Positions 2,207 to 15,323 of a DNA stretch of 64,000 nucleotides are shown here, one piece after another; position 1 is the stretch's first letter; each line of letters opens with the position of its first letter. The stretch lies in the NCBI RefSeq assembly GCF_007992215.1, contig NZ_BJZV01000001.1, positions 62,001 through 126,000 on the forward strand, in the 5' to 3' direction. The notes below the pieces were generated by a model that searched no databases, was not told the origin of the DNA, and saw only the letters and a list, made by a program, of their open reading frames with translations. Made by a program: the position numbers and the translations under genes. The DNA comes from Methylobacterium gnaphalii (GTDB taxonomy: Bacteria; Pseudomonadota; Alphaproteobacteria; Rhizobiales; Beijerinckiaceae).

Positions 2207-3685
2207 TTGGCCACCATCATCCCCGTCGCCTCCTTCGACTACGTGGTGTTCGGCGCCACCGGCGATCTGACCCGACGCAAGCTCCTGCCGGCCCTGTACT
2301 ACCGGTTCCGCGACGGCCAGATCCCCGGCAGCAGCCGTATCATCGGCGCCTCACGCACGGAGCTCACGACGGAGGCGTTCCGCGATCGGGCGCGCGAGGC
2401 CTTGCGCGAGTTCATTCCGAGCCATCATCTCGACGAGGCCGCGCTGGCGAACTTCATCGATCACGTCCACTACGTCGCGGTGGATGCCCTTGGCACGGAC
2501 GGCTGGGACGAGCTGAAGGCACTGCTCGACGAGCGGCCCGACCAGGTCCGGCCGTTCTATCTCGCCACCTCGCCCGATCTCTACGGCGCGATCTGCCGGA
2601 ACATCGAGCGCTGCGGCCTCGTCGGCGAGAACACTCGTGTCGTGCTGGAGAAGCCGATCGGCAAGGACCTGAAGTCGGCGCGTGCCATCAACGACGCCGT
2701 CGGCGCGGTCTTCCCGGAGGGCCAGATCTTCCGCATCGACCACTATCTCGGCAAGGAGACCGTCCAGAACCTGCTGGCCTTGCGCTTCGCCAACACGATC
2801 TTCGAGCGGCTCTGGAACGCCGACGTGATCGATCACGTCCAGATCACGGTGGGCGAGACCGTCGGCGTCGAGGGCCGCGGCGGTTACTACGACACCTCCG
2901 GCGCACTGCGCGACATGGTGCAGAACCACCTGCTGCAGCTGCTCTGCCTCACGGCGATGGAGAGTCCGCTCTCCCTCGACGCCGATTCGGTGCGCGACGA
3001 GAAGCTGAAGGTGCTGCGTGCCCTGAAGCCGATCACGCCGGCGGAAGTGCAGGCGGTGACGGTGCGCGGGCAATACGCGGCCGGCGCGGTGTCCGGGAAA
3101 AGCGTCCCGAGCTACCTGGCCGATCTCGGCGGCGAGACCTCGAGCCGCACCGAGACCTTCGTCGCCCTGAAGCTCGAAGTGCGCTCGGCCCGCTGGGCCG
3201 GCGTGCCGTTCTACCTGCGGACGGGCAAGCGCCTTCCGAGCAAGCATTCCGAGATCGTCGTGCAGTTCCGCGCCTCACCCTTCTCCATCTTCCCTGAGGA
3301 AGCTTTCGGGCGCGAGCCGAACCGCCTCGTCATCCGTCTTCAGCCCGAGGAGGGCATGAAGCTCGAGGTGATGACCAAGGATCCGGGCCCCGGCGGTATG
3401 CGCCTGCGCCCGACCGACCTCGACATCTCCTTCGAGGAGACCTTCAAGCAGCGCTACCCGGACGCCTATGAGCGCCTGTTGATGGATATCGTGCGCGGCA
3501 ATGCCACCCTGTTCATGCGCCGCGACGAGGTGGAGGCCGCTTGGGAATGGGCCGACAAGCTGCTTCAGGCCTGGGCCGACCGGCCCGAGCCGCCGCGCCC
3601 CTACGCCGCAGGCTCCTGGGGACCGACGGCGGCCATCGCCCTGATCGAGCGCGACGGCCGCACCTGGCACGAAGAAATTCGCTGA
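2207..3685 (+). CDS. zwf: Glucose-6-phosphate 1-dehydrogenase
   Basis: Oxidises glucose 6-phosphate to 6-phosphogluconolactone with NAD(P)+, the first step of the oxidative pentose phosphate and Entner-Doudoroff routes. The 492-residue product has the N-terminal nucleotide-binding motif FGATGDLTRRK near residues 15-25 and the family active-site signature RIDHYLGKE near 176-184. A TTG start at 2207 is preferred over the longer GTG-type start at 2153 because a GGGAGAAG ribosome binding site lies just before it, the length then matches the family (about 490), and the conserved fold starts at once. The usual partners pgl and edd are not adjacent. Confidence 0.95.
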   Translation: MATIIPVASFDYVVFGATGDLTRRKLLPALYYRFRDGQIPGSSRIIGASRTELTTEAFRDRAREALREFIPSHHLDEAALANFIDHVHYVAVDALGTDGWDELKALLDERPDQVRPFYLATSPDLYGAICRNIERCGLVGENTRVVLEKPIGKDLKSARAINDAVGAVFPEGQIFRIDHYLGKETVQNLLALRFANTIFERLWNADVIDHVQITVGETVGVEGRGGYYDTSGALRDMVQNHLLQLLCLTAMESPLSLDADSVRDEKLKVLRALKPITPAEVQAVTVRGQYAAGAVSGKSVPSYLADLGGETSSRTETFVALKLEVRSARWAGVPFYLRTGKRLPSKHSEIVVQFRASPFSIFPEEAFGREPNRLVIRLQPEEGMKLEVMTKDPGPGGMRLRPTDLDISFEETFKQRYPDAYERLLMDIVRGNATLFMRRDEVEAAWEWADKLLQAWADRPEPPRPYAAGSWGPTAAIALIERDGRTWHEEIR

Positions 3686-3699
3686 TCGCGCGTCGCGAT

Positions 3700-3711
3700 A
3701 AGAGATCTCTT
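3700..3711. repeat. 12-bp perfect palindrome after zwf
   Basis: AAGAGATCTCTT reads the same on both strands and lies 15 bases after the zwf stop. With no loop it makes a poor terminator. It could be an operator for a dimeric regulator, or chance. Confidence 0.3.
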
Positions 3712-3766
3712 CGTACAGCGTGAACAAGTCCGTCTACAACCACACAAGACATTGACCTTTTCTCCC

Positions 3767-3791
3767 GGAACGCCCCTACGGACAACACGTT
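3767..3791 (+). promoter_or_regulatory. EcfG-type general stress response promoter
   Basis: GGAAC at 3767-3771, a 16-base spacer and CGTT at 3788-3791 match the consensus GGAAC-N16/17-CGTT known for EcfG, the stress sigma factor of the PhyR-NepR-EcfG pathway in Methylobacterium and other alphaproteobacteria. It points toward the PAS/HisKA_2 gene and sits 42 bases before its first possible start codon. I found no second perfect match in the gene-free stretches I read. Confidence 0.65.
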
Positions 3792-3833
3792 GACCGCCGC
3801 GAGTCCCAACCAACGAGGGCAGGCTGGCACAGC

Positions 3834-4907
3834 GTGGTGGATCGAACGGCGGGCATGGATTCGGACACACCCTCGACGGACAAGACACCGGACCACAGCC
3901 CGTCTCAGGGGCTGGGCGACGACTTCCGTCGCTTCGCCGATTTCGTGCCGCAGATGATGTGGCGTTCGGACGAGCACGGTCGGGCGCTCCACCACAACGA
4001 GCGCTGGCTGCAATTCACCGGCCGTCCGTTGGAGGAAGAGTTGGGCGACGGCTGGCGCCGCGGGCTCCATCCGGACGACTTCGAGCGCCATGCCAAGATC
4101 GTTGCCGAGGCCTTCAAGGCCCGCGAACCGTTCAGCGTGGAGTTCCGCCTGCGCCGCCATGACGGGGCCTATCGCTGGGTCCTCGACACCGCGCGGCCGC
4201 TCACGGAGAACGGTCGCTTCACCGGCTATCTCGGTTCCTGCTTCGACATCACCGACCGCAAGAATGCGGAGGACCATGCCGAGGCGGCGCTCGTCGAGAA
4301 GGAGACCCTGCTCGCCGAGATCTACCACCGGGTCCGCAACAACCTTCAGGTCATGGTGAGCCTGATCGGGCTCTACGGCCGCGCCGCGCCGGAGCCCTGC
4401 CGCGGCAGCTTCGATGCGCTGGGCCAGCGGGTGCGCGCCATCGCCCTGGTGCAGCAGCACCTGCACGAGGCGCCTCACATCGCCTCGATCGACCTGCGCG
4501 ACTACCTGCACCGCCTCGCCTCGGGGCTCGGCCAGCTGCGCCGGGCCGGACGCATCGGCGTGACCGTCGACGGGACCGGAACCAGCATCGTCGAGCCGCG
4601 CACCGCCAACGCGCTCGGCATGATCGTCGCCGAAGTGGTGGCGGAGTGCCTCGACGCCACGACGGATGCGGTGACCTGCAGCGTGTCCATCACCATCGCC
4701 GCAGGCTTCGGTGAGCCGGTCAGGCTCTCGATCGTGTCCGGGCATGGCGAGGCCGCTGCCGCTGGCCGGCCGGGCGTGCCGAAGCTCGGGCCACGCCTGA
4801 TCGCGGCCTACGCGGCGCAGGCCGAGATCGCGGTGAGCGGTGATGCCACGCGCGCGCATCCGCTCGAACTGCAATTGCCCGAGGCACGGGCTCAGGGTTC
4901 CGGCTGA
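3834..4907 (+). CDS. PAS-domain HisKA_2 sensor protein with degenerate ATP-binding site
   Basis: A soluble 357-residue protein with no membrane segment or signal peptide. Residues 30-145 form a PAS/PAC sensor domain ending in GYLGSCFDITDRK. It is followed by a HisKA_2 dimerisation/phosphoacceptor segment, EIYHRVRNNLQVMVSLIG, with the presumed phosphorylated His165. In the ATPase part the N-box reads IVAEVVAECL where functional members have NELVxNA, so both Asn are lost (Ala266, Glu271), and the DxGxG box reads VSGHG. Autophosphorylation is therefore doubtful. HisKA_2/HWE proteins commonly act on PhyR in the general stress response, and an EcfG-type promoter lies upstream. The start could be GTG 3834 or 3837, or ATG 3855. 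Confidence 0.85.
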   Translation: MVDRTAGMDSDTPSTDKTPDHSPSQGLGDDFRRFADFVPQMMWRSDEHGRALHHNERWLQFTGRPLEEELGDGWRRGLHPDDFERHAKIVAEAFKAREPFSVEFRLRRHDGAYRWVLDTARPLTENGRFTGYLGSCFDITDRKNAEDHAEAALVEKETLLAEIYHRVRNNLQVMVSLIGLYGRAAPEPCRGSFDALGQRVRAIALVQQHLHEAPHIASIDLRDYLHRLASGLGQLRRAGRIGVTVDGTGTSIVEPRTANALGMIVAEVVAECLDATTDAVTCSVSITIAAGFGEPVRLSIVSGHGEAAAAGRPGVPKLGPRLIAAYAAQAEIAVSGDATRAHPLELQLPEARAQGSG

Positions 4908-4992
4908 TCCGCACCGCGCTTGGGTCGCGTCCCGCAGCCCGAGCACCTATATCGCCATCGGTATCCTCCGCCCGAAGAGCCTCGTGCCGTCC

Positions 4993-5418
4993 ATGCTTCC
5001 GCCCATCGCCGACATCGTCGAGAACTTCGAGCTGATCGAGGATTGGGAGCAGCGCTACGGCTACATTATCGAGCTCGGCCGCGAGATGGACGCCTTGCCC
5101 GAGGCGCTGCACACCGAGGAGAACCGGGTGCATGGCTGCGAGAGCCAGGTCTGGCTCGACGTCGGCCTCGACAAGGCCGCCCCGGAGCCGCGTCTCGCGC
5201 TGCGCGGCGACAGCGATTCCAGCATCGTGCGCGGGTTCGTCGCCCTGATGGTGGCGCTCTACCAGGGCAAGACGCCCCAGGATGCCGCCGAGACCGACGG
5301 GCTCGACATCTTTCGGCAGCTCGATTTCGGCTCCCACGTCACCTCGAAGCGCTCGAACGGCGTGCGCGCCATGGTGGCGCGCATCCAGCACGATGCCCGG
5401 CGCCTCGCCGCCGCGTGA
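4993..5418 (+). CDS. sufE: SufE family Fe-S cluster assembly sulfur acceptor
   Basis: SufE takes persulfide sulfur from the cysteine desulfurase SufS and passes it to the SUF scaffold. The 141-residue product matches the family in length and sequence: IADIVENFELIEDWEQRYGY at the start, then VHGCESQVWL with the acceptor Cys at about position 49 (Cys51 in E. coli SufE). ATG 4993 is chosen because homology begins right there. The ORF is open further upstream, but that part overlaps the sensor gene and looks non-coding. No suf operon is next to it, so this is a stand-alone copy. Confidence 0.92.
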   Translation: MLPPIADIVENFELIEDWEQRYGYIIELGREMDALPEALHTEENRVHGCESQVWLDVGLDKAAPEPRLALRGDSDSSIVRGFVALMVALYQGKTPQDAAETDGLDIFRQLDFGSHVTSKRSNGVRAMVARIQHDARRLAAA

Positions 5419-14114: not shown

Positions 14115-15323
14115 TCACCATTGAGCAACGGCATCGGCGACGATGGTGGTTCCGCTGAATGTGGGGGCCGAGGCCTTGTCGTCCAAGGTGGCTCGCACGA
14201 GCTGCGGCAGGCCAGCGCCATAGGTGGGCAGCAGATCGAAGCTGAACCGGGACGATGGCCGGTCCTGCGGCGCAATGAAGCCGGGGGTGCGGATGCTCGA
14301 CAGCGGGGCGCCCGGGCCGATTGCCACGCTCCAGACCGCCTCCGGCAGAAGCAGGATCGGCGGCGCCTTGCGGCGCGCCGGGATCAGGACGACCTCTTGC
14401 CCGGCATAGGCCAAGGCCTCGGGCCGGCTGACCTCGCCCACGGGCACGCCCCGGTTGATCAGAGCCGCCCAGAACGGGTGCTGGCCACCGTCGGAATAGG
14501 TGGTGCGGATGGCGGCGGCGCCGTCCTCGACGAGCTGCGCGACATGCGCGGCCTCGTCCTTCACCCGCGCGCTGGCCAGCGCCTCCTGCTCCTTGTCCTT
14601 CAGGGGCGCGAAGGCGTAGCGGCCGGCAGCCACGCTCACCACGGGTTCCTGGCCGGTTGCATCGAAGCGGTCCGACCCTTCCTTGAGCTGGCGCCAGAAG
14701 GCGATGTTCGCGTCGTTGCGGTAGCGCGCCATGTTGGCGGCGCTCATCCGGAACGGGAAGGACTGGAACTGGAACGCCGCCTGCCCGCCGGCGAAAGCCT
14801 CGCGCGCCACGGCGAAGAGTTCGCCCGCCACGGCGTCGGTCATGGCGAAGCAGCCCATCGACGAGCAGATGCCGTGAACCATCACGGCGGAGCCGGTATA
14901 GCCGTGTGCCTTGTCGAACGCGTTCGGGTAGCCAACGTCGAAGGACAGGTAGTAGCGCGAGTTCGGGTTCATCTGGCTCTTGGCCACGGTATAGAACCCC
15001 TCCGGCGTCTGCCGGTCACCGTTCTTGGTCTTCGGCCCGAGCTGACCGGACCAGCGGCAGATCGGATAGGTCTTTACGAAGACGAAGCGGCCGCTGCCGT
15101 TGCGCTTCCAGAGTTCGATCTCGGATTCCTTCTTGTAGGCCCGGATCAGGATTGGCGCCTCGGCGCTGCTACCCTTTGCCTTGATCAGCGCAAGCGTCGC
15201 CGCCGGAATCGGAGCCGACGCCTTGTCCGCCTGCGCCCGCGCTGCGCCGCCGAGGCAGAGCGAGATGGCGAGGAGGCGGAGAAACGGTCGGAGGCTGAGG
15301 AGGATCCGGCTCAAGGGTCGCAT
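14115..15323 (-). CDS. YafK-type murein L,D-transpeptidase
   Basis: An exported 402-residue protein with an N-terminal hydrophobic signal ending near GGAARAQA. The catalytic region has the YafK/DpaA hallmarks: ILIRAYKKESEIELWKRN, NGDRQTPEGFYTV, and the active-site segment MVHGICSSMGCFAMTD with the nucleophilic Cys. YafK-like enzymes have been linked to cleavage of protein-peptidoglycan bonds rather than crosslinking. The roughly 200 residues after the catalytic core are not assigned. ATG 15323 is preferred; a GTG three codons upstream is possible. It is the second L,D-transpeptidase of the window. Confidence 0.88.
   Translation of the reverse strand: MRPLSRILLSLRPFLRLLAISLCLGGAARAQADKASAPIPAATLALIKAKGSSAEAPILIRAYKKESEIELWKRNGSGRFVFVKTYPICRWSGQLGPKTKNGDRQTPEGFYTVAKSQMNPNSRYYLSFDVGYPNAFDKAHGYTGSAVMVHGICSSMGCFAMTDAVAGELFAVAREAFAGGQAAFQFQSFPFRMSAANMARYRNDANIAFWRQLKEGSDRFDATGQEPVVSVAAGRYAFAPLKDKEQEALASARVKDEAAHVAQLVEDGAAAIRTTYSDGGQHPFWAALINRGVPVGEVSRPEALAYAGQEVVLIPARRKAPPILLLPEAVWSVAIGPGAPLSSIRTPGFIAPQDRPSSRFSFDLLPTYGAGLPQLVRATLDDKASAPTFSGTTIVADAVAQW

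Follow-up and report, generated by a model that had tools for sequence, protein, structure and literature searches.

A conserved gene of Methylobacterium gnaphalii (assembly GCF_007992215.1, contig NZ_BJZV01000001.1, positions 62,001-126,000 of the forward strand; this whole stretch of 64,000 nt is the window of the analysis) codes for a PAS-HisKA_2 protein with a degenerate ATP site. The preferred reading, to which we give an even chance, is that of an EcfG-transcribed cytosolic pseudokinase that most likely serves the general stress response as a histidine phosphotransferase, probably relaying or draining phosphate in the stress circuit and not starting the signal. The phosphorylation route of PhyR in Methylobacterium is an open question in a genus with several EcfG and NepR paralogues, and a concrete candidate for a phosphotransfer or feedback node is offered by a pseudokinase that occurs in all genus genomes searched and is preceded by a conserved promoter of EcfG type. 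If this holds true, disabled kinases would have been taken up as phosphate switches by the alphaproteobacterial stress response on more than one occasion. No paper listed in literature searches names the Methylobacterium protein in its title or in the opening of its abstract.

Gene organization and neighbourhood

The gene belongs to a 4.78 Mb draft genome and is flanked by zwf, which ends at 3685, and by sufE at about 4993-5418; besides the GTG, an ATG in the same frame at 3855 could serve as the start. No receiver gene adjoins the gene, the neighbourhood points to no partner, and phyR is located on a different contig (locus L173). On the minus strand, an antisense open frame of 477 codons (3513-4946) spans the whole gene, probably as an effect of the high G+C content. 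The features are as follows, in window coordinates.

3767-3791, plus strand: EcfG-type promoter GGAAC-N16-CGTT, one per orthologue start (80/80)
3792-3800, plus strand: 9-base block directly 3' of the -10 element, consensus GACCGGCGC, GACCGCCGC in the window
3834-4907, plus strand: PAS-HisKA_2 putative pseudokinase gene, GTG start, 357 codons plus stop, orthologues in 111/111 genus genomes
3921-4262, plus strand: PAS sensor domain, residues 30-143, Pfam PAS_3, PAS_9, PAS_4 and PAS over cut-off, predicted PAS/LOV-like fold
4287-4478, plus strand: DHp four-helix region (HisKA_2), residues 152-215, HisKA_2 E 1e-15, pN/pS 0.088
4326-4328, plus strand: phosphoacceptor His165 of HRVRNN, 81/81
4479-4886, plus strand: CA domain, ATPase-like and degenerate, residues 216-351, with EL346 4r39 as the best match of its predicted fold
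4629-4655, plus strand: former N box, residues 266-274, with Ala266 (80/81), Glu271 (81/81) and Asp274 (81/81)
4737-4751, plus strand: former DxGxG box, residues 302-306, Ser302 in 80/81, aligned with DDGRG of EL346
4788-4799, plus strand: G2-like Gly-Pro-Arg-Leu, residues 319-322, 81/81

A conserved EcfG-type promoter

The first-pass annotation had placed an exact GGAAC-N16-CGTT element 42 bases before the start codon, and the sequence bears this out (element at 3767-3791, gap at 3792-3833). Taken in a single genome, the motif is no better than chance, because GGAACN{15,18}CGTT occurs twice in the window against 1.38 expected occurrences, and GGAACN{16,17}CGTT occurs 64 times in the genome, where its reversed control occurs 70 times. 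The other GGAAC/CGTT pair of the window, separated by 18 bases, lies on the minus strand at 14127-14153. The comparison across the genus rests on the best 80 of 107 confirmed orthologue loci (L050-L129), which together with the window make up the 81 sequences referred to throughout. Each of the 80 orthologues has exactly one site at its start, with a spacer of 16 in 77 loci and of 17 in three, and only two other plus-strand sites occur in the same loci (536,271 bases). GGAACG and ACGTTG are identical in 81/81 sequences while the spacer between them drifts, and on the strength of this conservation at 80/80 orthologue starts the promoter is taken as real; the chance origin hinted at by the single-genome counts is thereby ruled out. 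The element agrees, in the window and in all 80 orthologues, with the EcfG consensus GAAC-N16,17-C/GGTT given for M. extorquens (PMC4814048). An EcfG-type promoter is thus supported by genus-wide conservation, and the gene would be expected to depend on EcfG in vivo.

In some loci of a group of orthologues that are 59-63% identical, the site comes close to the extrapolated first codons (L113, L121-L126, L129) or falls inside them (L122), and for this reason the true start in those loci is placed further downstream. Specifically, the stretch chosen for L122 contains a stop and its variable N-terminus overlaps the promoter, so that its start likely lies later. EcfG-like sites are also found near the starts of the intact relatives L142 and L143; hence, the promoter is not tied to the loss of the ATP site, and EcfG control may be older than that loss, to judge from these sequences. 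Directly downstream of the -10 element, each position of the 9-base block is kept in 69 to 81 of the 81 sequences and conservation stops beyond it. The block is absent after the EcfG-like sites inspected at the phyR locus, and a discriminator, an operator and an RNA element are the candidates for its nature.

A phosphoacceptor histidine beside a degenerate ATP site

Pfam recognizes PAS_3 at residues 52-134 and HisKA_2 (PF07568) at residues 162-233, the latter with 58 bits against a curated cut-off of 22.3, and lists no HATPase_c family in the protein up to an E value of 1. The HRxxN signature of HWE/HisKA_2 stress-response proteins is present in the DHp region of all 81 sequences, in which His165, Arg166, Asn169, Asn170 and Glu267 are invariant; the retention of the phosphoacceptor, noticed at first in the single sequence, thus extends to the genus. 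Conversely, the N-box Asn and the DxGxG Asp of active kinases are replaced. In an alignment with EL346, a HisKA_2 kinase of solved structure, Glu271 (81/81) falls on the Mg-binding Asn of the N box and Ser302 (80/81, Thr in one) on the first Asp of DDGRG. The first-pass annotation had counted both N-box Asn as lost. That claim stands for Glu271, while Ala266 (80/81, Ser in one) is uninformative and no sign of inactivity, because the position is Ser in EL346 and Ala in the otherwise intact L140 and L141. Glu271 and Ser302 are therefore the signs of inactivity read from the alignment; the loss of the DxGxG Asp is confirmed, and the dead-looking ATP site gains support from substitutions that the orthologues share genus-wide. 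The protein would accordingly be expected to lack kinase activity.

AlphaFold models the whole protein with a mean pLDDT of 83.0 and a pTM of 0.61, with residues 1-26 disordered and the PAS domain from residue 30. PAS domains took up the fold search made with the complete model, and the DHp and CA regions (residues 145-351) were therefore predicted alone, with a mean pLDDT of 85.3 and a pTM of 0.82. The best match of this model is EL346 4r39 (Z 13.4 with 162 residues aligned at 3.9 A; Foldseek E 9.0e-9). The phosphotransferase entries 4qpk/4qpj are matched by Foldseek with E values of 1.6e-5 to 1.2e-4 at 11-12% identity, and 4qpk is not among the 50 VIA matches listed for the model. The CA domain is thus predicted to be folded, while lacking residues that hold Mg-ATP. 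No membrane segment is evident on inspection of the sequence, which suggests a cytosolic protein.

Conservation and selection

Orthologues are found in 111/111 genus genomes (E <= 1e-40), the closest being 87-94% identical in loci L050-L052 and 95, 88 and 95% identical in genomes G007, G021 and G076. Selection was gauged by pN/pS alone, as dN/dS medians were partly undefined owing to saturated pairs, from 900 random pairs of 3240 (683 pairs for the N-terminus). The most constrained region is the DHp (residues 152-215, pN/pS 0.088), which carries the histidine and on which receivers dock in the HisKA_2 family. The PAS domain (0.365) and the CA remnant (0.395) follow, and the lid loop at residues 303-315 (0.856), the loop that would close over ATP, is nearly neutral, with a value of 0.873 for the N-terminus. 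One stop lies within the aligned stretch in some genus genomes, mostly of the 59-63% identical group. A decaying gene is ruled out by the pN/pS values, by the presence in 111/111 genomes and by the invariant DHp residues; moreover, the ATP-site substitutions are themselves conserved, which is not the mark of a gene in decay.

Relatives and ancestry

In a sample of 248 family genomes, with eight candidates scored per genome, 26 match at E <= 1e-33 (16 of the genus, 10 of other genera). The closest relatives beyond the orthologues are PAS-HisKA_2 proteins of about 40% identity, of which L140-L143 retain the second N-box Asn and the DxGxG, and L145, L151 and the protein of L150/L165 are likewise degenerate. 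Degenerate-ATP-site PAS-HisKA_2 proteins lie at L165:4578-5534 (minus strand), L166:4496-5557 (minus strand) and L167:4790-5749 (plus strand), and the genes of L165 and L166 adjoin a receiver-HisKA_2 kinase and an Rcp1-like receiver.

A tree was built from 73 DHp and CA sequences, namely 18 of the 81 Methylobacterium proteins, 27 intact HisKA_2, 21 PhyT-type, 3 other degenerate and 4 of 11 HWE proteins, with the PhyT of Sphingomonas melonis itself outside the sample. The Methylobacterium proteins group with L140-L143 and the degenerate relatives (90/92, not starred, and under a long-branch warning), while the PhyT-type proteins form a separate, well-supported clade (99/100). Forcing the two into a joint clade lowers the log-likelihood by 13.06 units, and the AU test does not reject such a clade (p 0.27). 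A loss of the ATP site separate from that of the PhyT-type proteins is thus favoured by the tree, not shown. As the tree prefers the PAS-HisKA_2 kinases, the resemblance to PhyT may have arisen by convergence, and the partner may be another one.

Profiles of the DHp and CA regions score higher for intact HisKA_2 than for PhyT-type proteins in 81/81 sequences (medians of 107.1 and 72.5 bits), in a comparison biased towards the intact set by its inclusion of the nearest relatives L140-L143, whereas with CA-only profiles the PhyT-type score is the higher in 57/81 (28.6 versus 25.9). The DHp region gives a match to the family model of PhyK with an E value of 2.4e-15, far under the cut-off of that model; since the intact L161 scores better (1.1e-28), this match is no pointer to PhyR in particular.

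The phyR locus and candidate receivers

HisKA_2, HWE and PhyT-type DHp profiles found no match at any of 15 Methylobacterium nepR/phyR loci (L173, L233-L246), in stretches reaching about 6 kb on each side of nepR; one of the loci comes from the host genome and the others from 14 genomes out of the 24 further ones of the genus in which NepR matched. The same profiles match in 6/6 nepR/phyR loci of other families (L247-L252), which were taken from six of the seven other-family genomes with a NepR match and include two, L247 and L249, whose genes belong to the profile training sets. Beside phyR in genome G352 lies a PhyT-type protein (L247:6884-8536, plus strand) in which the N box and DxGxG are replaced; with its hydrophobic N-terminus, HRVKNN and degenerate CA, it resembles the published PhyT. 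A search with this protein in 297 order genomes, with four candidates scored per genome, gave matches in 21 at E <= 1e-30 and none in the family of the window. The host genome itself has five NepR-like places (L168-L172, on contigs C11, C13, C44 and C12), three of them over the Pfam cut-off; M. extorquens, too, is reported to have NepR paralogues.

As for the receivers, PFxFATG(G/Y) is the motif given for SdrG and MrrA (PMC5964349). PFxFATG has no match in the host genome or in G007, G021 and G076, and it matches in 84/110 genus genomes, not always in receivers: among 30 such loci, about ten show a short receiver-like frame by eye (a filter counted four), and others turn out to be long kinases or to lie in the wrong frame. 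A FAT GUY pattern was set aside, as neither of its two host-genome matches is a receiver. The short receivers inspected carry no FATG motif, and L194 has FITG. For M. extorquens, a role of the single-domain receiver Mext_0407 in the stress response is reported (cited in PMC13344952).

Proposed role and alternative explanations

According to the preferred reading, the pseudokinase would be unable to phosphorylate itself with ATP and would keep a working phosphoacceptor in His165. True HWE/HisKA_2 kinases would charge a receiver domain, from which His165 would take the phosphate and hand it over to PhyR, with the flow set by the PAS domain. Moreover, the protein may hold unphosphorylated PhyR, as PhyT does, and would take the place that phyR-linked, kinase-derived genes such as phyT occupy elsewhere. 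Since the pseudokinase would be induced by EcfG, a feedback loop would thereby be closed. Phosphotransfer is preferred to a decoy because the DHp is the most constrained region, HRxxN is kept in 81/81 sequences, and published relatives in which no autokinase activity was seen transfer phosphate; the partner and the direction of the transfer are proposed by analogy. The sequence fits both relay and drain, and the choice between them cannot be read from it. In a bolder version, possible though held with clearly less confidence, Methylobacterium would lack a kinase-derived phosphotransferase beside phyR and would have regained this function through the independent inactivation of a cytosolic PAS-HisKA_2 kinase, in effect a second origin of PhyT from another kinase. 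The resulting soluble, EcfG-induced pseudokinase, gated by its PAS domain and fixed in the genus, would then act as the central phosphate switch of the stress response, for both relay and drain.

The first-pass annotation had proposed a phosphate sink, phosphatase or decoy. This is possible, and the sink has a precedent in a phosphate drain induced by the stress sigma factor, although it is neither the only role nor the best supported one. Specifically, in a LovK-like arrangement the pseudokinase would pass phosphate from a shared donor to a dedicated single-domain receiver, or act as a phosphatase, and would only damp the response. LovK, described as showing no autokinase activity, drains MrrA together with LovR, and lovK and lovR are under SigT control (PMC5964349). 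The pseudokinase shares a PAS-type sensor with LovK and has an intact HRxxN and an EcfG-type promoter. However, no receiver gene adjoins it; PhyT, the relative with a degenerate ATPase, is described as devoid of PhyR phosphatase activity in vitro (PMC5898713); and negative feedback in M. extorquens has already been assigned, as a proposal, to an EcfG-dependent NepR paralogue (PMC4814048). Restricted to damping, this explanation appears unlikely.

Rather improbable is an EcfG-regulated phosphotransferase or phosphatase that serves another response regulator, as an output of the stress response and not as part of its control. The 29 single-domain receivers of M. extorquens (PMC13344952) would offer partners, no receiver with the SdrG motif was found in the host genome, and the gene is unlinked to phyR. 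Nevertheless, control over the phosphorylation of PhyR is attributed in this group to HRXXN proteins (PMC4814048), and the position of the gene points to no alternative partner.

A shade less probable still is a scaffold or decoy that acts by binding, either as a heterodimer with an active kinase or through PhyR sequestration, and carries no phosphate. Such a role would agree with the sequestration of PhyR by PhyT (PMC5898713) and with a CA remnant that is under selection though its ATP residues are gone, but a pure decoy would need neither His165 and HRxxN in 81/81 sequences nor a DHp as the most constrained region; in its pure, His-independent form, the decoy of the first-pass annotation is a poor fit. 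Lastly, a kinase activity retained by some unusual mechanism would be in keeping with a CA fold predicted intact and with Glu267 and Gly-Pro-Arg-Leu in 81/81 sequences, and is very improbable given that other, conserved residues have taken the places of both the N-box Asn and the DxGxG Asp and that the lid loop is nearly neutral.

Comparison with known systems

Among solved structures, the nearest to the pseudokinase both by sequence (E 4.9e-14) and by fold (Z 13.4) is EL346 of Erythrobacter litoralis (4r39, 4r3a), which, unlike the pseudokinase, is a kinase with the N-box Asn and DDGRG. The entries 4qpk/4qpj, a bacterial phosphotransferase of the ChpT type with a kinase-derived DHp and a CA-like fold, which is not known to carry a PAS domain, match less well than kinases such as EL346.

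LovK of Caulobacter crescentus reportedly has a cytosolic LOV-HisKA_2 layout and a flavin photosensor. It resembles the pseudokinase as a HisKA_2 protein with a PAS-type sensor and no evident membrane segment, under a stress sigma factor, and differs in its conserved CA domain and in working with LovR, whereas no receiver gene adjoins the pseudokinase gene. PhyK of the same species, for which no autokinase activity was seen either, is a HisKA_2 protein described as a histidine phosphotransferase that has no need of such activity; like LovK, it is phosphorylated by MrrA, and it transfers phosphate to PhyR (PMC5964349). The sensor of PhyK is periplasmic and its CA domain well conserved (PMC5964349), in contrast to the lost ATP site of the pseudokinase.

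PhyT (formerly PhyP) of Sphingomonas melonis Fr1 combines HRxxN with a degenerated ATPase domain and acts as a phosphotransferase; it moves phosphate from SdrG to PhyR and sequesters unphosphorylated PhyR (PMC5898713). Its gene depends on EcfG (PMC6599016). The pseudokinase shares HRxxN, the degenerate ATPase domain and, in its EcfG-type promoter, the presumable regulation. Conversely, PhyT is membrane-anchored with a periplasmic sensor and is encoded at the phyR locus, whereas the pseudokinase has a PAS domain, no membrane segment by inspection, and a gene between zwf and sufE. Because locus and sensor differ, and joint ancestry is not settled by the tree or the AU test, the pseudokinase is not filed as PhyT. 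By function, and by analogy, it would fit among the phosphotransferases of the PhyT, PhyK and LovK type.
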